Positions 38,418 through 50,542 of a stretch of DNA of 50,542 bases are shown here, piece by piece. The DNA is from Gammaproteobacteria bacterium. GTDB lineage: Bacteria > Pseudomonadota > Gammaproteobacteria > Porifericomitales > Porifericomitaceae. The translations under genes and the position numbers were made by a program. The notes under the pieces are model-generated. The model made no database searches, was not told the origin of the DNA, and worked only from the letters and a program-made list of their open reading frames with translations. The DNA lies in contig JABAAT010000035.1 in the NCBI GenBank assembly GCA_014238615.1, forward strand, positions 1 through 50,542, given 5' to 3'. Numbering within the stretch: position 1 is the stretch's first letter; every line of letters begins with the position of its first letter.

Positions 38418-40199
38418 TCAGTATACCCGCTTTCCGGGGGGGATGCTGTCTATTTCAGCGGGTTGCAACTGCACCGGGCGGTAGGCGAAACGCGTTCGGC
38501 CGCTCTCCGGATCAATCCAGCACAGGGTATGCTTCAACCAGTCTTGGTCATCGCGCTTCGGGTGGTCCTCGCGAGCGTGTGCCCCGCGGCTTTCGGTGCG
38601 GTTGTCCGCCGAGTGGATGCTGACCATGGCGCAGGCCAGCAGGTTCCCCAGTTCCCAGCTTTCCACCAGGTCCGTGTTCCAGACCAGGGAGCGATCCGTG
38701 AGCTTGATGTCATCCATATTCTCCCAGAGCCGGCGCAGTTTCTCAATGCCTTCCCGCAGGATCTCCCGGTTGCGGAAGACAGCGGCGTTCTGCTGCATGA
38801 TCTTCTGCATTTCCCGGCGCAGCTCGGCGGTGGATATTTCTCCCGAGGCGTTGCGCAGCTTGTCAAATTTTTCCAGGATGGGGTCCAGGAGGCCCTTGGG
38901 CATGGCCTTGTGGGGGGCGCCGGGGCGTAACCGCGCCGCGCAGTGTTCAGCGGCGGCGCGCCCGAACACGATGAGGTCAAGCAGCGAGTTCGATCCGAGA
39001 CGGTTGGCACCGTGCACGGAGACGCAGGCCGCCTCGCCGATGGCATACAGTCCGGGCACCACCCGCATGCCGTTTTCAGCATGGGTCAGAACCTGGCCGT
39101 GCAGATCGGTGGGTACGCCACCCATGTTGTAGTGCACGGTGGGTTGCACCGGGATCGGCTCCCGGATCACGTCCACCCCGGCGAAGATGCGCGCGGTCTC
39201 GGAGATGCCGGGCAGGCGTTTCTCAATGAGTTCCGCGTCCAGGTGTTCAAGGTGCAGGTGTACGTAGTCTTTCTCGGGACCCAGTCCGCGGCCTTCGCGC
39301 ACCTCCATGGTGATGGCGCGGCTGACCACGTCGCGCGAGGCCAGGTCCCTGGCGCTGGGTGCGTAGCGTTCCATGAAATGTTCCCCCGAGGAGTTGCTCA
39401 GGTAGCCGCCCTCGCCGCGCGCGCCTTCGGTGATCAGGCAACCGGCTCCGTAGATACCGGTGGGATGGAATTGGATGAATTCCATATCCTGCAGGGGCAA
39501 CCCGGCGCGCGCCGCCATGCCGGCGCCGTCTCCGGTACAGGTGTGAGCGGAGGTACAAGAGAAATAAGTACGTCCGTAACCGCCGGTGGCGAGCACCACC
39601 GTGTGCGCGAGCAAACAGTGCAGGCTGCCGTCGTCCAGGTTCCAGGCAAGTACACCGCGGCAATTTCCCTCCTCGTCCATGAGCAGGTCCAGGGCGAAGT
39701 ATTCCACGAGAAAGTGAGCCTGGTGGCGCAGCGACTGCTGGTAGAGAGTGTGCAGGATGGCGTGGCCGGTGCGATCGGCGGCGGCACAGGTGCGTTGCGC
39801 GGTACCCTTGCCGAAGTGGGTGCTCATACCGCCGAAGGAACGCTGGTAGATGCGCCCGTCCTCGGTGCGCGAGAAGGGGACGCCCTGGTGTTCCAGCTCC
39901 AGCACGCAGGACATGGCTTCACGGCACATGTATTCAATGGCGTCCTGATCGCCCAGCCAGTCGGAGCCCTTGACGGTGTCGTACATGTGCCAGCGCCAGT
40001 CGTCCTCGCCCATGTTGCCGAGGGCGGCGCTCATACCGCCCTGGGCCGCTACCGTATGGCTGCGGGTGGGGAAAACCTTGGTGACGCAGGCGGTCTTCAG
40101 GCCTTTGAGCGCCATTCCCATGGTGGCGCGCAGGCCGGCGCCGCCGGCGCCGATGACCACGACGTCATACCTGTGCTCCACGATGGGATAAGCGGTCAT
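38418..40199 (-). CDS. sdhA: Succinate dehydrogenase flavoprotein subunit
   Basis: Oxidises succinate to fumarate at covalently bound FAD. The 593-residue protein has the dinucleotide motif [11 protein letters not shown], the flavin-linking His in [11 protein letters not shown] (His48), [21 protein letters not shown] (first part), and the capping and C-terminal helical domains ([19 protein letters not shown], first part). It follows sdhD by ten bases. The assembly factor SdhE encoded downstream should act on His48. Confidence 0.97.
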
Positions 40200-40209
40200 G
40201 GAGCGTCGC

Positions 40210-40593
40210 TCAGCCGGTGACGGCGATCTTCAGCACCGCGATCAGGGTGGCGATGGCGATGAAGAAGCTGATGAGATACAGGAATACGATGCATGTGATT
40301 TTTTCCCAACCTTCCTCGGCATAGTCCTCGATGATGACCTGCACCCCTAAATGTCCGTGGTAGTAGAGACTCATGGTGAACATCAGCATGAGCGTGGATA
40401 CCACGGGCCTGCGCAGCCAGGCCAATACCTCCTGGTGTTCCAGGCTCTCCAGGCCGCAGAGCGTGAGCAGGAACCAGATGCTCAGGGGCAGCAGGGCAAC
40501 GGCGGTGAGCCGCTGCCATATCCAATGCCGGGTGGCGTCATGTCCCACGGCGCCCAGGCCGCGCGCCCGGCCCAGCGCTGACTTCAGGCTCAC
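40210..40593 (-). CDS. sdhD: Succinate dehydrogenase membrane anchor subunit
   Basis: One of two heme-b membrane anchors of complex II. The 127-residue protein has [19 protein letters not shown], three membrane helices and [15 protein letters not shown] with the conserved His. The frame is open to 40740, but the GTG at 40593 overlaps the sdhC stop (GTGA) and gives the family length. Confidence 0.94.
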
Positions 40594-40985
40594 GCGCGGG
40601 CCGCCCCGGAATAAAACAACAGCAGGTAGAGTACGCCCAGCACCAAGGTGGCGGCCAGCACGGCGGCGCCGGAGCGGTAAACGGCCGGCAGCGAAAAACC
40701 CAGGCCGGCGTCCCAGCACAGGTGGCGGATGCCGTTGCACAGGTGGTAGAGCAGGGCGAACAACAGCAGGATCAGCAGGTTTTCACCGTACCAAGACTGC
40801 ATGTGCAGCTGCAGGCGCCCGTAAACCTCAGGCCCGGAGGCCAGGGCCAGCAGCCACAAACCCAAGGCGATACCGCCCAAAAACAACACGAAGCCGCTGA
40901 TGCGGTGCAGGATCGATAGCACCGAGGTCAGTTGCGGTTTGTAGATGGTCAGGTGTGGTGACAGCGGCCGGGCGTGTTTTACCAT
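40590..40985 (-). CDS. sdhC: Succinate dehydrogenase cytochrome b556 subunit
   Basis: Heme-binding membrane anchor with the quinone-site start RPLSPHLTIYKPQLTS and SILHRISG, and the axial heme ligand region YHLCNGIRHLCWDAG. Three helices, 131 residues. An AAGGAG lies only two or three bases from the ATG, closer than ideal. It is the first gene of sdhCDAB-sdhE-ygfZ-aguAB, transcribed from the 495-base divergent region. Confidence 0.95.
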   Translation of the reverse strand: MVKHARPLSPHLTIYKPQLTSVLSILHRISGFVLFLGGIALGLWLLALASGPEVYGRLQLHMQSWYGENLLILLLFALLYHLCNGIRHLCWDAGLGFSLPAVYRSGAAVLAATLVLGVLYLLLFYSGAARA

Positions 40986-41480: not shown

Positions 41481-42053
41481 TTGCGGCAAATGGAGTTCGG
41501 CGGCGGGATTCTACGCCTGCCTTTGTCTGCATCGTCCGGTTTGCGCTTCAGTAGCCTGTTGCTGCGGTTCGGCCTGTTACCCACCGCGTTGCTGCTCAAG
41601 CCCCCTTTTCAGTGGCTGCTGGCGGGGTTGGCCTTGCTGTTGCTGCTTGGAGAGTACCGTCGGCGCAGCGCCCCTTTTGTCGCCCTGGAAGTCCAGGATC
41701 GCGCACACTGCTGGCTGCTGGATGCCGCTGGACACCGTTTGCCTGCGCGCCTGTTACCCGGCTCCTGCCTGCATCCCCGCCTGACAACGCTGTATCTGCG
41801 TTATGCCGGCGGCCTGCACACGGTGTTTTTGCCACCCGCTCCGGGGGCGGTTGCCCTGCATCGCCGGCTCCGCGTGCGGCTGGGCCTTTCCGTTTCAGCG
41901 GCCGCTGCGGCGGCTCTGGTTATAGATCCGCCAGGCCAGCCAAAGCTTGCGCACGGGACCGGGCACGGTGTGAGCCTGGGCCCGCTCCGGGTCAGCCGCG
42001 GCAGGCTTCAAACAAGTGGTTTCTGCCAGCCGGGCCATGATCAGGCCAGGTAG
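41481..42053 (+). CDS. ygfX: YgfX-like membrane protein (CptA family)
   Basis: Small inner-membrane protein; in E. coli YgfX (CptA) shares an operon with sdhE and has been described as a toxin acting on MreB and FtsZ. The pattern fits: a two-helix hairpin (LLLRFGLLPTALLL and FQWLLAGLALLLLLGEYRRR), then WLLDAAGHRLPARLLPGS and the closing HRRLRVRLGL. I place the start at TTG 41481, eight bases after GGAGG; an ATG at 41490 is the alternative. The 190 residues exceed the usual 135-150 because about 50 low-complexity residues follow the family core and run antisense over the end of the next gene. Confidence 0.7.
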   Translation: MRQMEFGGGILRLPLSASSGLRFSSLLLRFGLLPTALLLKPPFQWLLAGLALLLLLGEYRRRSAPFVALEVQDRAHCWLLDAAGHRLPARLLPGSCLHPRLTTLYLRYAGGLHTVFLPPAPGAVALHRRLRVRLGLSVSAAAAAALVIDPPGQPKLAHGTGHGVSLGPLRVSRGRLQTSGFCQPGHDQAR

Positions 42054-42677
42054 TTGTCTCCGGCGCTCCGTGGCCGGCACACGCAGGCGCGCTTCCCGCA
42101 AATCCCGCGCCAATTCCTTCAGCCGCCCATGCTCCGGTCGCGAGCGGCCGCCCGGCAGCACCAGGATGATTTCATAACAGGTCAGCAGCCGCGCCAGCTT
42201 TTCCAGCCCGGGGCTGACGAGAGGGGGGGCCGTGGTATGCGCGGCCGATTCGCTCAGCCAGTGGGCGCACCGCGCCGCGTCCGGCGGCAGGGGCGCTGGA
42301 GCCGCCAATTCTTTTTCGCAGGCCACGGCCAGCTGCAGCAGTTGTTCCCAGGCGGCCGCTTGCACCGCCAGCATCTTCTGCAATTCCCGCGCGACCGGGT
42401 GCCCGGCCTCCCCGAGACGCGCCCGCGCCAGTTCCGTTTGCCACCACTGCAGCTTGAGCCGGGCCACGCCGGGGTCTTTTTGCAGCCCTGGTATTTCCCC
42501 CACTTCCAAGGCGTAGGCATGCAGGGCGTGGAGCAGGCGTTTGCGCCGCACCGTCTCAAAGAGCAGCGCATAATACAGGTTGGAGCCGAGCGGCGCGCAG
42601 CGGGCGCGACAGTAGGCCGCATCGCTCGGGGCAGGGGCAGCGGGGGAAGGCACCCGGGGCATTGTGAACCTTGTCAC
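41895..42677 (-). CDS. Squalene/phytoene synthase-family protein, probably non-catalytic
   Basis: The 260-residue protein has the fold signatures of the SQS/PSY family: a start like APLGSNLYYALLFETVRRKR, LHALHAYALEVGEIPG, and DPGVARLKLQWWQTELARA. The Asp-rich motifs (DxxxD) that hold the diphosphate-bound magnesium in true synthases are not apparent; the first position reads EVGEI. This resembles the NDUFAF6-type branch, proteins linked to respiratory complex assembly. It overlaps ubiG by four bases, so quinone or respiratory function is a reasonable inference. It overlaps ygfX tail to tail by 159 bases. Confidence 0.75.
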   Translation of the reverse strand: MTRFTMPRVPSPAAPAPSDAAYCRARCAPLGSNLYYALLFETVRRKRLLHALHAYALEVGEIPGLQKDPGVARLKLQWWQTELARARLGEAGHPVARELQKMLAVQAAAWEQLLQLAVACEKELAAPAPLPPDAARCAHWLSESAAHTTAPPLVSPGLEKLARLLTCYEIILVLPGGRSRPEHGRLKELARDLREARLRVPATERRRQLPGLIMARLAETTCLKPAAADPERAQAHTVPGPVRKLWLAWRIYNQSRRSGR

Positions 42678-43390
42678 GGTGGATTCCGCGGATGGACAAA
42701 CTCCCTGCCGTGCTCGTGGGCCGGGCGCCGTGCCGCGAGCAGGTAGTTGACCCCGGGGCGCCGGGTCAGGAAAGCACGCTGCAGGCCGGGTAGGTAGAGC
42801 AGGCCGCGCAGTTCCAATACCTCCAGGTTTGCCGCGCGCACCATTGCCGCCAGCTCTTCCGGGCGCAGCAGGGATACGTAATCATGCGTACCGGGCGGCA
42901 GCACACGCAACAGGTATTCCGCTCCCAGGATCGCCAGCAGCCAGGAGGTCGGACTGCGATCCAGGGTGCTGCAAACGAGTTCGCCGCCGGGGCGCAGCAG
43001 GGCCGTGCAGGCGCGTACCTCCGTCGCCGGATCGGCGCAGTGCTCAAGCATTTCCATGCAGGTGACCAGCTCGTAGTCGGTGGTTTCCCGCGCGGCGTGG
43101 TCGGCGAGAGAGCGACAGTGGTAGTCGATCTCAAGCCCGGAACGCCGGGCGTGGTCGCGCGCCGCCTGGATCGCCTCCGGCGCCGTGTCCAGGCCGGTCA
43201 CCCGCGCCCCGCGCCGGGCCATGGCCTCGGCCAGGATGCCTCCCCCACAACCAGCGTCCAGCACCGAAAGGCCGCGCAGCGGCGCTCGGGACTCAAGATA
43301 GGCCAGGCGCGCCGGGTTGATGGCTGCCAGGCTTGTATAGGCGCCGCCCGGCTCCCACCAAGCGGCTGCACCCAGGTTGAAATCCGTCAT
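42674..43390 (-). CDS. ubiG: Ubiquinone biosynthesis O-methyltransferase
   Basis: SAM-dependent enzyme for both O-methylations in ubiquinone synthesis. The 238-residue class I methyltransferase has FNLGAAAWWEPGGAY at the N-terminus, motif I VLDAGCGGGILAEAMARRG, ITGLD-like VTGLDTAPEAI, the post-II segment VTCMEMLEHCADP and GTHDYVSLLRPEEL, the last typical of UbiG. A short tail of about 20 residues after the core (HEHGREFVHPRNPP) is unusual. It stands 102 bases after the SHOCT gene; that gap holds two copies of GCCTTGAGCCTG (43449-43460, 43464-43475). Confidence 0.94.
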   Translation of the reverse strand: MTDFNLGAAAWWEPGGAYTSLAAINPARLAYLESRAPLRGLSVLDAGCGGGILAEAMARRGARVTGLDTAPEAIQAARDHARRSGLEIDYHCRSLADHAARETTDYELVTCMEMLEHCADPATEVRACTALLRPGGELVCSTLDRSPTSWLLAILGAEYLLRVLPPGTHDYVSLLRPEELAAMVRAANLEVLELRGLLYLPGLQRAFLTRRPGVNYLLAARRPAHEHGREFVHPRNPP

Positions 43391-43492: not shown

Positions 43493-43846
43493 TCAGAAGA
43501 GCAACGCCGTGCCCCCGCTGAGCAACACCAGCAGCAGCAAGACCGCGCCCCGACAGTACAGCGTCCGGTGCCGTTGCCGTGCCGCGAAGGCTGCTCCCTG
43601 CTGCTTGAACATGCGTAGTTGGCTGGCGGCGTCGGCCCGGCGCCGTCGCAGTTCGTTGCATGTCACGGTGCTGTTCTCGGAACTTTCCAGGTAAGGGTAG
43701 ATTTGCTCAGGCAGGGACCGGGCGCTGCTCAGAACGGCCGTCAGCAGGGCACGGCGCCGCTCGAGATATTCTTCTTTGGATAACAGGCCCTGGGTGTACA
43801 GAAGGTTTAGCTGGTAAAGGGAGGATTCGCTCGCTGGGCATGGCAT
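43493..43846 (-). CDS. Small SHOCT-type tail-anchored membrane protein
   Basis: An unnamed protein of 117 residues. Its N-terminus reads LYQLNLLYTQGLLSKEEYLERR, a good match to the SHOCT motif (a short helical hairpin found in oligomeric bacterial proteins). It ends in a single hydrophobic helix (RGAVLLLLVLLSGGTALLF), so it is probably tail-anchored in the inner membrane. The ATG at 43846 has AAGGA seven bases upstream; a TTG at 43861 overlaps the kinase stop and has GGAGG four bases before it. Either way it is translated right after the kinase and is probably its partner. Confidence 0.75.
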   Translation of the reverse strand: MPCPASESSLYQLNLLYTQGLLSKEEYLERRRALLTAVLSSARSLPEQIYPYLESSENSTVTCNELRRRRADAASQLRMFKQQGAAFAARQRHRTLYCRGAVLLLLVLLSGGTALLF

Positions 43847-43857
43847 CGACCGATCCT

Positions 43858-46800
43858 TCAATAAACCTCCTCTCGCAGCACCCGGAAACCGGTGATCGGA
43901 TTCGGTGTGCCGTCTTGCGCATGGCTCAGCGAGACCTGGCAGTCCTGCAGGGAATCTTTGTGTGAACCACCGCGGGCGCTCAGGCTGTCGGAGTCTCGCA
44001 CCAACTCCTGCACGTTGCCCAGGTAGTTGCTCAAACCCCAGGCGTTGGTTGTTCCGGAGCGCACGCTAAGCGCCGACATGCCTTTGAGCACCTGGTTGTT
44101 TTGCACCACCTGGCAGTTTAGATTCCGGCGCACCGCCGAGACCTGGGTGTCGGTCATGCCGTTGGCCCGGGCGGCGTATTCCCATTCGGTCGAGGTGGGC
44201 AGACGATAATGATTCCCGGAGCGTTCAGATAGCCATTTCAAGTAATTGTCCACAAACTGGATGGAGACTCCCGTCAGCGGGTTGTTCTTATCCCCGGAAA
44301 GTACCTTGCAGCTTTTGGAGAACACGCAGTATTTATTGTGATCATGGATCGATATCTCGTATTTTCCGATCGCGAAGGGCTGGGTGAAGCTTCCCCCGGC
44401 GGGTACCACCACCAGGTCCGGCCCGCGAAACCTGTCGGAGATCATGTCATAGCAGACGGCGCGCACGCGTTTGCCGTATCCCGCCAGGCGGGAGTTGCAC
44501 TCAGCGGGTGATGGGATGGGCTGCCAGGGGGCGGGGGTTTCCGGGGTGGGAGCAGGCTCGCGGAGTGTGGCTACCGCCTGGTTGTCAGCCTGGGTTGCGG
44601 GTGCCTCGGAGGGGGTGGGTGCAGCGCCTGACGCGGCTTCAGGGTCCCGTGTGTGCGAGGGGGCGGAGGTCGGCTCCGCTGGACTGGGGCCCGCCTCGGG
44701 TCTCGTCTCTGGTCTCGCCTCAGGCGCGGGGCGCGGCGCGGGGGACGCTGGCGCGGGTTCCGCTTGCTCAAAAAGATCCCCTTCCTGCCGCCTGATGCCG
44801 GTTGGCCGGTTACTGAGGCCGCGGATCCTGTTTCCCAAGTCAACCCACTCCTTGCTGAACGCCGGATTGTCCTTCCAGATCAGCCTGGCGATTTGCAGCT
44901 TCAACTTGGCCTCTTTCAACTTCTCCTGGTTATTTCCGGCCTGGCCCAGGAGACTCAGGAATTCGTCCTTGGCGTTGTTGGCCTCTTGGATTTTGTCTTC
45001 CAGGCGTTCCCGGAAAGGATCGACCCCAGGGTTATCCTCGGGAGCCTGGCCCAGCAATTCCCGGGCCTCACTCAGGTTGCCGTGCTGAAGGGCCAGTTCG
45101 GCTTTTTCCTGGTTCTCCCAGGGCGTGCTCGCAAAAGAGTCACGCAAGGCCGTCAGGGCAGACGCGCCCGGGAAGATCGTCAGTGCCTGCTGGAGTAGAT
45201 CGCCGGCCTCCGCGGGTTGTTGCTCCAGCAGGGCCTGTACACGCTGCTCTAGAATTTGCACGGACTCGGAGCGCAGTTTGGCATAGCGTGAAGGTGCTTC
45301 CTGCTCCAGGGACTGAATGGTTTCCTGAATGGACGCCGCGGAAAAGTCGAAGCCCTCGCGGAAGATTCCCCCGAGTTTCGCGATGTCGTTTTCAATACGG
45401 TATGCGCGCTCCAACTGTTTCAGGTTAGCCGAATCGGGGGCGACTTCCAGGGCCTTTTGTATCGTCTGCAGGGCCGCCGTGAAGTCCCGGTTTTTAGCGT
45501 CTGCCTTGGCCAGGCCGAGATAAGCCGTCTCGAACAGACCGGGCGCCTTGTCGCCCAGGTAGGGGTCCCCGGCCGGTAATTCCCGTTTCAGTTCTTTCAG
45601 GATGCCCCTGGCTTCCATCACCGATTCGGGGGTTTTGGCCTGAAGGGCCACTTGCAGTGCCTGTTTTTTGCTTTCCAACTCGGCCAGGCGCTGTTCTTCC
45701 TTTTTCTGGCGATGAAAATCGAGGTCGGCGGCCCTGATTTCCTGCTCCTTGATTTTCAGTACGGCGACGTCCGGGGCCAGCAGGGCGGCACCCTGAATCA
45801 GGTTGATAGCCTCTTCGAAACGCTGCTCCTCAAGCAGTTTATCGGCAGCGCTGATATGGATCGAGGCGATGGTTTTATGGGTTTTGGAGAGCAGGGAGTC
45901 GTCCGGGGGCAACAGGGCCGACAACTGCTGCAGGGAGGCGCGCAAATCACTCTGCCAATCGGGGTCATTCAGCATGGGGTTCTGCAACAACCTGTTGATA
46001 TTATCCTGGCTTTCTCCCAGGATCTCCTTGATGACCTTACCGCGTTCAGGTCCGGAGAGGTGGAGCAGTTTGAGTTCGGAGAGTTCACGCCCGAACTGCA
46101 AAGCGCTGAGCAGATTCCCGTAAGTGCCCACCACCTTTTGCGCGTCGGCCCGGGACCCGGAGGTGCGGATCTCGCTCACTTTCTCCTGCAGGACATCCTG
46201 GGTTTGCAGGGCCAGCCTGGCGACCGCCTCGTTGCCCGGCGCCAGCGAGACTAATTCCGTTACGTCTTTTTCGATGGCCCTGTAATCTTCCAGTCGCCTT
46301 AGATGCGGCTGGGCGTCAAGGATTTTCTTCTCCAGCGCGGCGATGTTCCGGTCGCGCTCAATTTTGCCCCTCAGGTTCAGCAGGGTGCGTTCCGTGGGAG
46401 CGATTTCCAGCCCGGAATCCACGCTTTGCAAGGCCAGCTGATAGTTGCCCTTGTTGAGCTCGCCCCTGGCCACTTCCCAGTAGGCGATGACCCGGCGCTG
46501 ATCCTTGAGAAGCGCGTGGCCGGGTGAAATTTGTTCGATCTTGCCCAGTATTTCGCTGATCTGGTCCTGGTTTTCGAGCACCCCGCTGGGGTCCTCCAGG
46601 AACCCAAGGTAGCGCTTGTTCAGTTCGTAGAGCAGCTGGTCCTTGCGGCTTTGTACCTTCTGTGCGAAATTACTCAGCCACCGGGAGTCCGGGTACAGCA
46701 TGCGCACCTGCGTCAGCAGGGCTTCGGCCCGGCCGAAGTTGTAGCGGCCTTCCGTGGTCTGGATCGCGTAGTTTACCTTGTTCTCATAAGACTGTTGGAT

Positions 46801-48318
46801 GGCCATACGCGCTTCGTCCAGAATGGTTTTTCGATCCTGCTCACTGTATGAGGGCAAGCGCTCAAGCACTACTCCAACGTAGTCCTGGCTTTCCTGCATC
46901 TGGGCGATGGTTTTCCTGACTTCTTCCGTGTGCAGGTAATCCCGCACCGGGAAGAAAGCGATACCCGCGGCCAAAAAGAGAACCATGATGCCGATGAACA
47001 CCGGATTCTTCTGCCAGTGCGCCTTGCCTTCCAGTTCCTCGACGAAGCTTTCCACCGTGGGTGAGCGATCCTTGCGATGAAAGGTCACGGAACGTTTTAA
47101 GGCGCGGTTCTGCTTGCCTTTCAGGCCCTTGACCATGGGCGGCGACAGCTTGTTCTCCAGTGCGACCGTGGCCGGCATTTTGTTGAAAGGATGTTTGCCG
47201 GTCAGTAGTTCGTAGGCCACGCATCCCATGGCGTAGATGTCGTCGCGTGGATCCGGCTCCTCGCCTTCCAACATTTCCAGGCTGGCGTAAGCGGGCGTCA
47301 GGGCGCCCAGTTTGCCCGGGTCAAAGAGGGTTTTTTCACTGTCTCCCGTGATCGGATTCTTGGCGGCGCGCGCGATGCCGAAGTCCAGGACTTTCACGTT
47401 GCCGTCCTTGCAGAGGAAGGAGTTTCCCGGTTTGAAATCCGAGTGCACGATGTTCTGGTTGTGGGCGTAGGCCAGGGCCAGCCCGAGGTCCTGGATCATG
47501 GGGAAAGCCTTTTCAAAAGGCAGGCCGCCCTGGGGGCGGGTCTTTTCCTTGATGAAGGTGTTCAGCGGCACGCCTTCCAGCAACTCCATGGTCAGGTAAA
47601 CCTGCGAGCCGGTGGTGCCGATGCGGTCAAAGTCGTAGACCGTGGCGATGTTGGGGTGCGCGAGCTTCTGCTGGCGGCTGGATTCACGCTGCAGGGAAAT
47701 AAAAGCTTCGGGATGCTGCCTGAAGTCCTCGTTCAGCAACTTGATAGCCACGTAAGGGTTGCGGTCCCGGGCTTCCTGTTTCAGCAGGTCAATCCCCTTG
47801 TACACCCTGCCCATGCCGCCCTCGCCCAGTACCTCCAGCAATTTGAAGCGGTGCTTGATGACCGATCCCACGCCGAGCTGCTCGCCGTCCGACTCTTCTG
47901 TGGCGGAGGCATCCGTCCAGCCGCTGGAGGAGGCGCTTGGCCCAGGCGCGTCCGGCAGGGAGTGGACGGAGGGCAGGGGGGCCGGATCATCCAGGGTGAG
48001 GTCCATGTTATCTTGGACACCAGGTTCCGCGGGACTCGGCGCATCGTCCGTTGTTTCTCGCGCCTGCGCGATGGGATCGGCTGATTTCCTTGCAGTCAGG
48101 GCGCGGGTTTCCTCTGCCACGCGTGCCACCTTGCCGCGCAGGCGGGTGTATAGCGCACGCTCCAGGTGCTGCGTGGTATGGGCATTATCCAGTTCTTCCA
48201 GTATTTCATCCGCGACCTGTGGAGACTGGCGCAGCAACAGGTCCAGGCGTTTGCTGAACTTGATTTCTTCCAGTTTGCCTCGAACGACTGCTTGCAGTGC
48301 TTGCTTGAAGTTAGCCAA
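43858..48318 (-). CDS. Giant membrane Ser/Thr protein kinase with C-terminal FGE-sulfatase-like domain
   Basis: 1486 residues, TTG start with GAGGAG upstream. Layout: helical N-terminus (1-80), acidic Ser/Pro linker, kinase domain (about 158-430), one membrane helix (about 439-456), a long helical repeat region (about 460-1170), a Pro/Glu/Ala linker (about 1180-1268) and an FGE-sulfatase (SUMF1) domain to the end. Kinase motifs: LGEGGMGRVYKG, Lys193 (VAIK), HSDFKPGN with Asp294, DFGIARA with Asp312. HRD is HSD, so it is a non-RD kinase, and APE reads SLE. The FGE part has RLPTSTEWEYAAR and ARGGSHKDSLQDC but only one of the two catalytic-cysteine positions. The helical region and FGE fold should lie in the periplasm, suggesting a sensor. 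Confidence 0.92.
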   Translation of the reverse strand: MANFKQALQAVVRGKLEEIKFSKRLDLLLRQSPQVADEILEELDNAHTTQHLERALYTRLRGKVARVAEETRALTARKSADPIAQARETTDDAPSPAEPGVQDNMDLTLDDPAPLPSVHSLPDAPGPSASSSGWTDASATEESDGEQLGVGSVIKHRFKLLEVLGEGGMGRVYKGIDLLKQEARDRNPYVAIKLLNEDFRQHPEAFISLQRESSRQQKLAHPNIATVYDFDRIGTTGSQVYLTMELLEGVPLNTFIKEKTRPQGGLPFEKAFPMIQDLGLALAYAHNQNIVHSDFKPGNSFLCKDGNVKVLDFGIARAAKNPITGDSEKTLFDPGKLGALTPAYASLEMLEGEEPDPRDDIYAMGCVAYELLTGKHPFNKMPATVALENKLSPPMVKGLKGKQNRALKRSVTFHRKDRSPTVESFVEELEGKAHWQKNPVFIGIMVLFLAAGIAFFPVRDYLHTEEVRKTIAQMQESQDYVGVVLERLPSYSEQDRKTILDEARMAIQQSYENKVNYAIQTTEGRYNFGRAEALLTQVRMLYPDSRWLSNFAQKVQSRKDQLLYELNKRYLGFLEDPSGVLENQDQISEILGKIEQISPGHALLKDQRRVIAYWEVARGELNKGNYQLALQSVDSGLEIAPTERTLLNLRGKIERDRNIAALEKKILDAQPHLRRLEDYRAIEKDVTELVSLAPGNEAVARLALQTQDVLQEKVSEIRTSGSRADAQKVVGTYGNLLSALQFGRELSELKLLHLSGPERGKVIKEILGESQDNINRLLQNPMLNDPDWQSDLRASLQQLSALLPPDDSLLSKTHKTIASIHISAADKLLEEQRFEEAINLIQGAALLAPDVAVLKIKEQEIRAADLDFHRQKKEEQRLAELESKKQALQVALQAKTPESVMEARGILKELKRELPAGDPYLGDKAPGLFETAYLGLAKADAKNRDFTAALQTIQKALEVAPDSANLKQLERAYRIENDIAKLGGIFREGFDFSAASIQETIQSLEQEAPSRYAKLRSESVQILEQRVQALLEQQPAEAGDLLQQALTIFPGASALTALRDSFASTPWENQEKAELALQHGNLSEARELLGQAPEDNPGVDPFRERLEDKIQEANNAKDEFLSLLGQAGNNQEKLKEAKLKLQIARLIWKDNPAFSKEWVDLGNRIRGLSNRPTGIRRQEGDLFEQAEPAPASPAPRPAPEARPETRPEAGPSPAEPTSAPSHTRDPEAASGAAPTPSEAPATQADNQAVATLREPAPTPETPAPWQPIPSPAECNSRLAGYGKRVRAVCYDMISDRFRGPDLVVVPAGGSFTQPFAIGKYEISIHDHNKYCVFSKSCKVLSGDKNNPLTGVSIQFVDNYLKWLSERSGNHYRLPTSTEWEYAARANGMTDTQVSAVRRNLNCQVVQNNQVLKGMSALSVRSGTTNAWGLSNYLGNVQELVRDSDSLSARGGSHKDSLQDCQVSLSHAQDGTPNPITGFRVLREEVY

Positions 48319-48421
48319 GCCGGTTTAACTCCTCAGTTTGAAGCATACAGGTTGTTAAGGCCCAGGGTATTGGGCCGCCGCTCCCCCCCCCTGATGAATT
48401 AAAGAGCGGAACATTAGGTTG

Positions 48422-49273
48422 TTAAGCTCCAGAGATTGTACCGCTGTTCTTCCGAGCCTGCACCCTGTCGTCCCCGTGCAGGTCCACTATGATTGCGGTG
48501 ATGTTGTCTTGGGCGCGGCCCGCCAGGGCCTTTTGCATCAGTTTTTCACAGGTCGGTCGGGTGGCCTCGCCCGCCGCCAGCAGGTCGAAGATTTCAGCGT
48601 CCGAAACTTCATTGGTGAAGCCGTCGGTGCAGAGCAGGTAACGATCTCCGGGCCGCAGGGTGATCATGTCCAAATCAAGATGCAGTTCGCCGGGGCCTCC
48701 CACGGCGCGCAAGATGCGGTTGCGCAGGGGGTGCCTGCGCGCCTCCTCGGGAGAAAGCAGGCCGGCGCTGACATACTCATAGACTGTCGAGTGGTCCAGG
48801 GTCATTTGGCACAACCGTTTATTCCGAAAGCGGTACAGGCGGCTGTCTCCGACCCACAGAAACACCCCGTGGCCTTGCTGCAGCAGCAGCACCAACAACG
48901 TGGTTCCAATAAGACATTTGTTGTATCCCAGTGCGACCCTGCGCAGGTAGGCATGGGCCTGGCCGATGCGGCTCTCTACCTCATCCAGCAGCTGGACCAG
49001 GGACCGTTTCTCAGGCAGGGCGCGTAACACATCCGTGACGATCCTGCTGGCGATGTTGCCGCCGACGTGTCCACCCATGCCGTCTGCGACCACCCAGATG
49101 CCCGCTTCCCCGCGACACAGGAAGCAGTCTTCGTTCAGCTTGCGTTCCTTCCCGATATCGGTGATGGCGTGGGAAGTCCAGCGCAACGGCGCCTCCCGCT
49201 TCCCGTTCAGGGCGAGTCGCGGCGGCGGGTAAAGATGCGGCGCGCCGAGCGGTTGCGCCTTGACCACGCTCAT
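48422..49273 (-). CDS. PP2C-family serine/threonine phosphatase
   Basis: Predicted to reverse the neighbouring kinase. The 283-residue PPM phosphatase keeps the metal and phosphate motifs: KERKLNEDCF (Asp49), VVADGMGGHVGG (Asp64), GDSRLYRF, LDHSTVYEYV, LLCTDGFTNEVSD and DNITAIIVDL. It begins with an ATG overlapping the cyclase stop (ATGA) and lies 103 bases before the kinase. It has about 30 extra N-terminal residues before the domain. Kinase-phosphatase pairing is known from Stp/Stk and from type VI secretion PpkA/PppA systems; no secretion genes are seen here. Confidence 0.94.
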   Translation of the reverse strand: MSVVKAQPLGAPHLYPPPRLALNGKREAPLRWTSHAITDIGKERKLNEDCFLCRGEAGIWVVADGMGGHVGGNIASRIVTDVLRALPEKRSLVQLLDEVESRIGQAHAYLRRVALGYNKCLIGTTLLVLLLQQGHGVFLWVGDSRLYRFRNKRLCQMTLDHSTVYEYVSAGLLSPEEARRHPLRNRILRAVGGPGELHLDLDMITLRPGDRYLLCTDGFTNEVSDAEIFDLLAAGEATRPTCEKLMQKALAGRAQDNITAIIVDLHGDDRVQARKNSGTISGA

Positions 49274-50169
49274 GCGCCGCGTTTTCCTGAGAACCGCACG
49301 AGCGCTGGGGGATTATCGCTGAACGGGCGTCCCATGCTGATTTCCCCGCTGTCCGAAAGCAGTCCTTCCTCCCGATGCAAGTAGGAAAGCTGTCCGTTGC
49401 TGCGTACATGGGTGCCGTTGGTGCTTTGGTCAATGATAAAGAATTTATCCCGGCGCATCTCCAGGCGCACATGATAGCGGGAGGCGAGCTCCTCATCGAC
49501 GGGCATGTCGCAGTCCTTGCTGCGGCCGAGTACCAGGGTATGGCAGGAGCGATTCAGTGTGAGGTTTTGATCCTGGTACGTCACCTGCAGGTTGCGGGTG
49601 CTGCCAGTCTGTCTCACGCGCGTTTTGGGGGCCAGGCAGGTCGCATCCTCGGATTGCCACAGGACTTCGTAAATAGACGTCAACTCTTTCTTTCCCTTGA
49701 CGATGATGCGATCCAGCATGCGGCACGACCCCCGCAGGTCCCGCGGAAGCATTTTCAGGGTGTCCTCGGTAAGGACCGTTTGCCGGGCCTTGGCCTGGGC
49801 GGCCATGCGCGCCGCCATGTTGACGGTGTCGCCGTAAACGTCGCCCTGCTCAATCAGCGCGGGTCCGTAGTGAATCCCGATGCGCATTTGCAGGGGGAGG
49901 AATTCGTAGGTGGCCGAAGGATCATGGAATTTCCGATGTACCTGCGTAGCCGTGTTAACGGCCTTTTCAACGCCGGTGAATATGCACATCACTTCATCGC
50001 CGATGGTCTTGATAATCTTGCCTTCGTGGTTGCGGATGATCCCGGAAATCGCCCGCAGCACGGCGGAAATCAACCGCTGAGCATGCTTGTCCCCGAGTTT
50101 CTCGTAGAGCTGGGTGCTGCCGCTGACATCCGCAAACATGATAGCGAGCTTTGCGGCCTTAGGTGTCAT
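49270..50169 (-). CDS. Class III nucleotidyl cyclase with C-terminal FHA domain
   Basis: The 299-residue protein joins a class III cyclase catalytic domain (about 5-170) to an FHA domain (about 205-285). Catalytic features are complete: metal Asp14 (FADVSGST) and Asp58 (KTIGDEV), base-selecting Lys54 and Asp114 (YGDTVNMAARM), and transition-state Asn117 and Arg121. Lys plus Asp favours cAMP over cGMP. The FHA domain has LGRSKDC, SRYHVRL and NGTHV, the phosphothreonine-binding residues. I infer that it binds phosphorylated kinase or substrate, coupling phosphorylation to cyclic nucleotide output. First gene of the unit; no membrane helix. Confidence 0.93.
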   Translation of the reverse strand: MTPKAAKLAIMFADVSGSTQLYEKLGDKHAQRLISAVLRAISGIIRNHEGKIIKTIGDEVMCIFTGVEKAVNTATQVHRKFHDPSATYEFLPLQMRIGIHYGPALIEQGDVYGDTVNMAARMAAQAKARQTVLTEDTLKMLPRDLRGSCRMLDRIIVKGKKELTSIYEVLWQSEDATCLAPKTRVRQTGSTRNLQVTYQDQNLTLNRSCHTLVLGRSKDCDMPVDEELASRYHVRLEMRRDKFFIIDQSTNGTHVRSNGQLSYLHREEGLLSDSGEISMGRPFSDNPPALVRFSGKRGA

Positions 50170-50418: not shown

Positions 50419-50542
50419 CCAGTCAGTCAAGCCAGTCAGTCAAGCCAGTCAGTCAAGCCAGTCAGTCAAGCCAGTCAGTCAAGCCAGTCAGTCAAGCCAG
50501 TCAGTCAAGCCAGTCAGTCAAGCCAGTCAGTCAAGCCAGTCA
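50419..50542. repeat. 13-bp tandem array at the window edge
   Basis: About 9.5 perfect copies of CCAGTCAGTCAAG run from 50419 off the right end. The unit is not a multiple of three and the array contains no coding frame of its own, so it is a noncoding minisatellite. Perfect identity implies recent slippage expansion or an assembly artefact at a contig end. Confidence 0.9.

Follow-up and report, generated by a model that had tools for sequence, protein, structure and literature searches.

A conserved operon of a PpkA-type membrane kinase, a PP2C phosphatase and a predicted FHA-linked adenylyl cyclase in Gammaproteobacteria, related in parts to type VI secretion control

The window, that is, the whole stretch of DNA analysed here, is one complete contig of 50,542 bases from a genome of 1.67 Mb that is 99% complete. 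Most named relatives of the genes studied here belong to Gammaproteobacteria, which is taken as the class of the genome. Towards its end, four genes separated by overlaps or short gaps are encoded on the minus strand, and all four open reading frames are present where the sequence-only reading had placed them. The genes and features of the locus are as follows:

49270..50169, minus strand: CYC, the cyclase-FHA gene (299 aa)
49639..49641, minus strand: codon of CYC Thr177 in the interdomain linker (SEDATCLA), a candidate kinase phosphosite
48422..49273, minus strand: PP2C-type Ser/Thr phosphatase (283 aa), a presumed PppA-like partner
43858..48318, minus strand: transmembrane Ser/Thr kinase (1486 aa; TTG start)
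47329..47331, minus strand: codon of kinase Thr330 in the activation loop (EKTLFDPG), a candidate autophosphorylation or FHA docking site
43861..44553, minus strand: C-terminal FGE-like ectodomain of the kinase (Pfam FGE-sulfatase, E=1e-13)
43493..43861, minus strand: small SHOCT-like protein (122 aa; TTG start)
42674..43390, minus strand: UbiG-like methyltransferase (Pfam methyltransferase), the conserved next gene, not claimed for the signalling set
50419..50542, no strand: 13-base tandem repeat at the contig end, 9.5 copies, 100% identical (Tandem Repeats Finder)

As read from the window, the CYC and PP2C reading frames overlap by 4 bases, as do those of the kinase and the small protein, and a gap of 103 bases separates PP2C from the kinase. 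Upstream of CYC, 373 bases remain before the contig breaks off within the perfect 13-base tandem repeat, and the upstream side of the operon is cut there. The proposed domain content was borne out by Pfam, which returned Guanylate_cyc and FHA for CYC, PP2C_2 for the phosphatase, and Pkinase, TPR and FGE-sulfatase for the kinase. The four genes thus exist at the positions given, and they are conserved.

CYC is composed of a class III nucleotide cyclase domain (aa 6-164; Guanylate_cyc, E=7e-23), a disordered linker and an FHA domain (aa 213-261; E=7e-11). The catalytic set D14, K54, D58, D110, N117 and R121 was invariant in the 44 operon homologues, leaving the two metal-binding Asp, the Lys/Asp purine pair and the transition-state Asn/Arg of a class III adenylyl cyclase all intact. 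The Lys/Asp pair would select ATP, and CYC is thus predicted to form cAMP from it. The predicted structure (pLDDT 88.5, pTM 0.61) had the adenylyl cyclase Ma1120 as its best PDB match (TMt 0.89). With the class III adenylyl cyclases Ma1120, CyaB and Rv1900c, CYC has in common the catalytic fold and all six catalytic and specificity residues; it differs from them in its C-terminal FHA domain, in the conserved Thr of its linker and in the linkage of its gene to a kinase/phosphatase pair. The FHA residues R216, S230, H233 and N251 (motifs GRS, SRxH and NGT) were invariant in all 112 homologues, so the phosphothreonine-binding set is complete. The low-confidence part of the linker (residues 174-189, pLDDT <50) contains a single residue that is fully invariant among the operon homologues, namely Thr177 (44/44). 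This residue was also kept in 55 of the 68 homologues, among the 112, in which CYC-FHA is encoded alone. Since CYC so often stands alone elsewhere and mostly retains Thr177 there, its kinase need not be the neighbouring one.

The kinase begins with an N-terminal linker, followed by the kinase domain (aa 159-427), one TM helix (aa 440-458), a long TPR-containing ectodomain and the C-terminal FGE-like domain. The motifs VAIK, HSDFKPGN and DFG are present, and among the relatives tested the HSD version of HRD is common to all that are CYC-linked and to most of those from T6SS. Homology to the kinases of T6SS clusters and the single TM helix identify it as a PpkA-type transmembrane Ser/Thr kinase. 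It did not qualify as a PASTA-type Stk1/PknB kinase, as NF033483 matched the kinase part only, at 189.5 bits against a cut-off of 450. The activation-loop motif [DE]xT[LVI]FD[PA]G was conserved in most kinase homologues, T6SS kinases included. In the Marinospirillum kinases L112 and L118, the T-[LV] that precedes FD is D-E instead, possibly a built-in phosphomimetic.

The FGE domain ascribed to the kinase is upheld as a Pfam match, but probably not as a formylglycine-generating enzyme, because it has lost an active-site cysteine: of the two, the second is kept, and the first, which varies across the family, is Asp in the window kinase and most relatives. An active formylglycine-generating enzyme was rejected on this ground. 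The domain also matches the PvdO, a kinase ToxD and FGE structures of the FGE/PvdO superfamily, and it differs from FGE in having only one of the latter's two active-site cysteines. Six cysteines were invariant in a 10-sequence alignment. The lost active-site Cys together with the other conserved cysteines would be more in keeping with a periplasmic binding domain stabilised by disulphides than with an enzyme, and the domain is probably a non-catalytic binding or sensing domain. The same ectodomain type is found on a phosphatase in the same genome, where a PP2C-TM-FGE-like fusion is encoded on contig C47 (L004:1-2004). At two loci of the same family (L072, L073), another kinase of the same group also ends in an FGE-like part and is an orphan, having no PP2C, CYC or SHOCT neighbours.

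The phosphatase (PP2C_2, E=1e-12) contains the metal motifs VADGMGGH, GDSR, CTDGF and QDN, as read from the sequence, and scored 189.9 bits with NF033484 (Stp1), under the cut-off of 230. It lies beside the kinase, as does the PppA-type PP2C of the T6SS pathway.

The small protein has an N-terminal helical hairpin and a C-terminal TM helix. The match to SHOCT (PF09851), which lies N-terminally, ahead of the TM helix, fell below the Pfam cut-off (18.5 against 27 bits, E=0.0017), as did those of two homologues (14.5 and 24.7 bits). An HMM trained only on homologues from T6SS clusters and from PP2C-kinase-SHOCT trios matched the window protein at E=5.8e-4. The same HMM was positive in 26 of the 37 sets of reading frames downstream of CYC-linked kinases and in none of the 16 downstream of unlinked kinases. 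In six loci (L079, L081, L082, L083, L084 and L105), the SHOCT-like protein after the kinase is much longer (566-761 aa), and most of these carry a second FGE-like domain.

The conserved synteny predicted for the four genes was recovered. The order CYC, PP2C, kinase, SHOCT-like gene recurs in genomes of the same family, in many other families of the class and in named records, and since the homologues are full-length and in the same order in so many families, the gene set is more than chance. In a class-wide sample of 369 genomes, searched with the N-terminal 483 aa as the kinase query, full-length CYC-FHA homologues were found in 79 genomes and the kinase in 64. Both occurred together in 42 genomes, with the kinase alone in 22 and CYC alone in 37 (Fisher p=6e-18, a value that is only indicative because related genomes are not independent), and the two genes lay within about 5 kb of each other in 20 genomes. 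The named isolates Marinospirillum alkaliphilum and M. celere carry CYC, PP2C and kinase followed by a small hairpin-plus-TM reading frame (profile E=0.0022 and 1e-5, respectively). In some families (L090-L093, L121), CYC is divergent or convergent to the PP2C-kinase-SHOCT trio. Five loci (L094, L095, L113, L117 and L142) have CYC, PP2C and a SHOCT-like reading frame with no kinase between them, and in G142 and G094 no such kinase was found anywhere in the genome at the threshold used. The Klebsiella pneumoniae and Bordetella parapertussis record titles among L113, L168 and L162 seem doubtful, since the records are metagenome bins with genes that fall among those of unrelated bins.

The surroundings of the operon are conserved as well. 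Another 25 CYC loci contain a UbiG-like gene, and each of them has PP2C or the kinase close by; none of the compared loci with CYC alone contains one. SdhA/SdhC and a phytoene-synthase-like gene often lie in the same stretch as CYC and ubiG, as they do in the window. This neighbourhood points to an old chromosomal site for the operon rather than a recent assembly. In the CYC tree, the window protein falls within a starred, supported set of 34, of which 31 are in operons. In the kinase tree, from which the kinases near CYC in L032, L096 and L170 were left out as members of other kinase families, the starred set that includes the window has 28 members, 27 CYC-linked and none from T6SS, and the T6SS kinases all lie outside a wider starred clade of 48; this is a quick tree with no bootstrap and no outgroup, which does not settle the direction of change.

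Kinase/PP2C/FHA sets are known with type VI secretion, and the sequence-only reading had noted that the window contains no secretion gene. Adjacent tss/imp genes were looked for, and no TssC (PF05943) was found in this 99% complete genome, in which the contig stops short on the upstream side of the operon. The possibility that the set belongs to a T6SS in this organism was therefore rejected. TssC was present in 2 of 20 genomes with a CYC-linked kinase, against 27 of 44 in which kinase and CYC are not neighbours, and the T6SS of those two genomes lies on other contigs than the operon. In other genomes, the order TssK-TssL-TssM-TagF-PP2C-kinase-SHOCT was seen inside T6SS clusters (Pfam check of one cluster), and an FGE-like C-terminus is also common in T6SS-cluster kinases. 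With homologous trios inside such clusters, the T6SS threonine-phosphorylation pathway is the nearest known counterpart. This PpkA/PppA/Fha pathway resembles the operon in that its membrane kinase and PP2C are homologous and follow the same order, in its FHA reader and in the SHOCT-like reading frame after the kinase. It differs in that the FHA reader here is C-terminal to a class III cyclase and not part of a TagH/Fha scaffold, in that this genome has no TssC, and in that the kinase group is separate from the T6SS kinases. Among the window genes, the Fha/TagH model with N-terminal FHA (TIGR03354) scored 27.1 bits, against a cut-off of 120, and through the FHA part only. Of the two components thought to set the operon apart from the standard T6SS set, the cyclase fusion does differ, but the SHOCT-like gene does not, since its homologues also directly follow the PpkA-like kinase in T6SS clusters. 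A SHOCT-like gene special to the cyclase version was accordingly rejected.

The operon and the T6SS pathway also have a threonine pattern in common, defined as an acidic residue at most 3 positions before Thr and a hydrophobic residue 2 after it. It occurs in three places: the kinase activation loop (Thr330 in the window), many kinase N-terminal linkers, and CYC at Thr177. In the disordered N-terminal linkers of 31 CYC-linked kinases, it was observed 97 times against 25 expected from shuffling, and in those of 13 T6SS kinases 35 times against 5.5. The Ser version was observed 40 times against 23 expected in the CYC-linked linkers, and 3 times against 6 in the T6SS linkers. The N-termini of T6SS TssL, for which Met was added at +2, gave 25 observed against 3.0 expected. 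As the pattern is short and was defined after reading the sequences, these statistics are exploratory. In Agrobacterium tumefaciens, PpkA phosphorylates TssL within SSWQDLPpTVVEITEE (D-L-P-pT14-V-V), and phospho-TssL recruits Fha (PMC5995506). This site fits the pattern, and an acidic-x-T-x-hydrophobic sequence is thus common to the kinase loops and TssL (PMC5995506). The window kinase has no copy in its own linker (0 against 0.39 expected), and an array of linker motifs serving as its docking site was rejected. In this genome, that leaves just Thr330 and Thr177. The pattern suggests a preference of this kinase family for such sites, with CYC Thr177 as its substrate and with the FHA domain reading Thr177 or the kinase.

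Taken together, the favoured interpretation, in which we have somewhat more confidence than doubt, is a conserved signalling operon independent of T6SS, built from parts of the T6SS threonine-phosphorylation pathway, whose output component is a class III adenylyl cyclase-FHA protein. The TPR/FGE-like ectodomain would sense an envelope condition and activate the cytoplasmic kinase. Judging from the common pattern, the kinase may then autophosphorylate at Thr330 and phosphorylate CYC at Thr177. The FHA domain would bind one of these two phosphothreonines, so that CYC is docked on the kinase or its dimer is re-arranged, and cAMP synthesis would change, up or down. PP2C, from its family, would reset the system, with the SHOCT-like membrane protein as a putative accessory at the membrane. 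A kinase-to-cyclase link through FHA, with Thr177 as candidate phosphosite, is plausible. The sequence-only reading had called the set a phospho-relay, which is the wrong term for a Hanks kinase, a PP2C and an FHA reader.

cAMP is a reasonable predicted output, because no class III cyclase other than CYC was found in the genome and several cyclic-nucleotide-binding proteins are encoded there (seven domain matches in four or five proteins). These proteins are the predicted targets of cAMP, and one of them is fused to a kinase, so the pathway may lead on to a second kinase. This fusion, a Hanks kinase with a C-terminal cyclic-nucleotide-binding domain on contig C47 (L076:4470-5822), is possibly a cAMP-controlled kinase. 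Two similar proteins of the same genome (L076:10921-12024 and L008:1201-2298) combine cyclic-nucleotide-binding domains with a C-terminal rhodanese-like part.

A tentative variant of the favoured interpretation has the FHA domain bind phospho-Thr177 within CYC itself, by which phosphorylation would shut the cyclase off with no recruitment. Autoinhibited FHA proteins of this kind are the GarA/OdhI type. The position of Thr177 in a disordered linker just ahead of the FHA domain agrees with this variant, whereas the low confidence of that linker leaves the domain arrangement open in the model (pTM 0.61).

It is unlikely that the genes share an operon and no direct pathway, with the CYC FHA domain answering other kinases and the kinase/phosphatase pair acting on other substrates. 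At least two other Hanks kinases are encoded in the genome, CYC-FHA is found apart from these neighbours in betaproteobacteria, among other groups, and CYC-PP2C loci without this kinase exist; however, the adjacency is long conserved, the grouping is congruent in both trees, and Thr177 matches the pattern of this kinase family. It is very improbable that the operon is a T6SS regulatory cassette that was displaced or has decayed, whether it continues to serve a secretion system or is a remnant of one, with the cyclase riding along: its PP2C and kinase are indeed homologous to PppA-PpkA of T6SS clusters and in the same order, but the genome has no TssC, T6SS occurs in few CYC-linked genomes and then on other contigs, the catalytic motifs of the kinase are intact, the CYC-linked kinases group apart, and the operon occupies a conserved ubiG/sdh site.

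Returning to the signalling operon, we give roughly even chances to the broader proposition that Gammaproteobacteria widely possess an envelope-to-cAMP pathway through which a PpkA-family kinase acts on Thr177 of the FHA-adenylyl cyclase linker, with one phosphothreonine code common to it and the T6SS switch and with different outputs. If true, a switch for secretion control and a second-messenger pathway share one set of parts. To our knowledge, few direct links from a Hanks-type kinase to cAMP have been described in bacteria. Myxococcus Pkn2 likewise brings kinase and cyclase modules together, but as one polypeptide, whereas here they are separate genes and the FHA domain is on the cyclase (PMC1262709). 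No description of the operon was found in the open literature searched, and as far as that search goes it is new; PpkA/PppA-type control is known, and the variation lies in a cyclase replacing the Fha scaffold. Thr177 offers one named residue for testing in cultured hosts, as two Marinospirillum species carry the operon. The UbiG-like, phytoene-synthase-like and sdhCDA genes beside the operon (window positions 41895-43390 and 38418-40985) are also found in distant relatives, and these neighbours may hint at a link to quinones or respiration.
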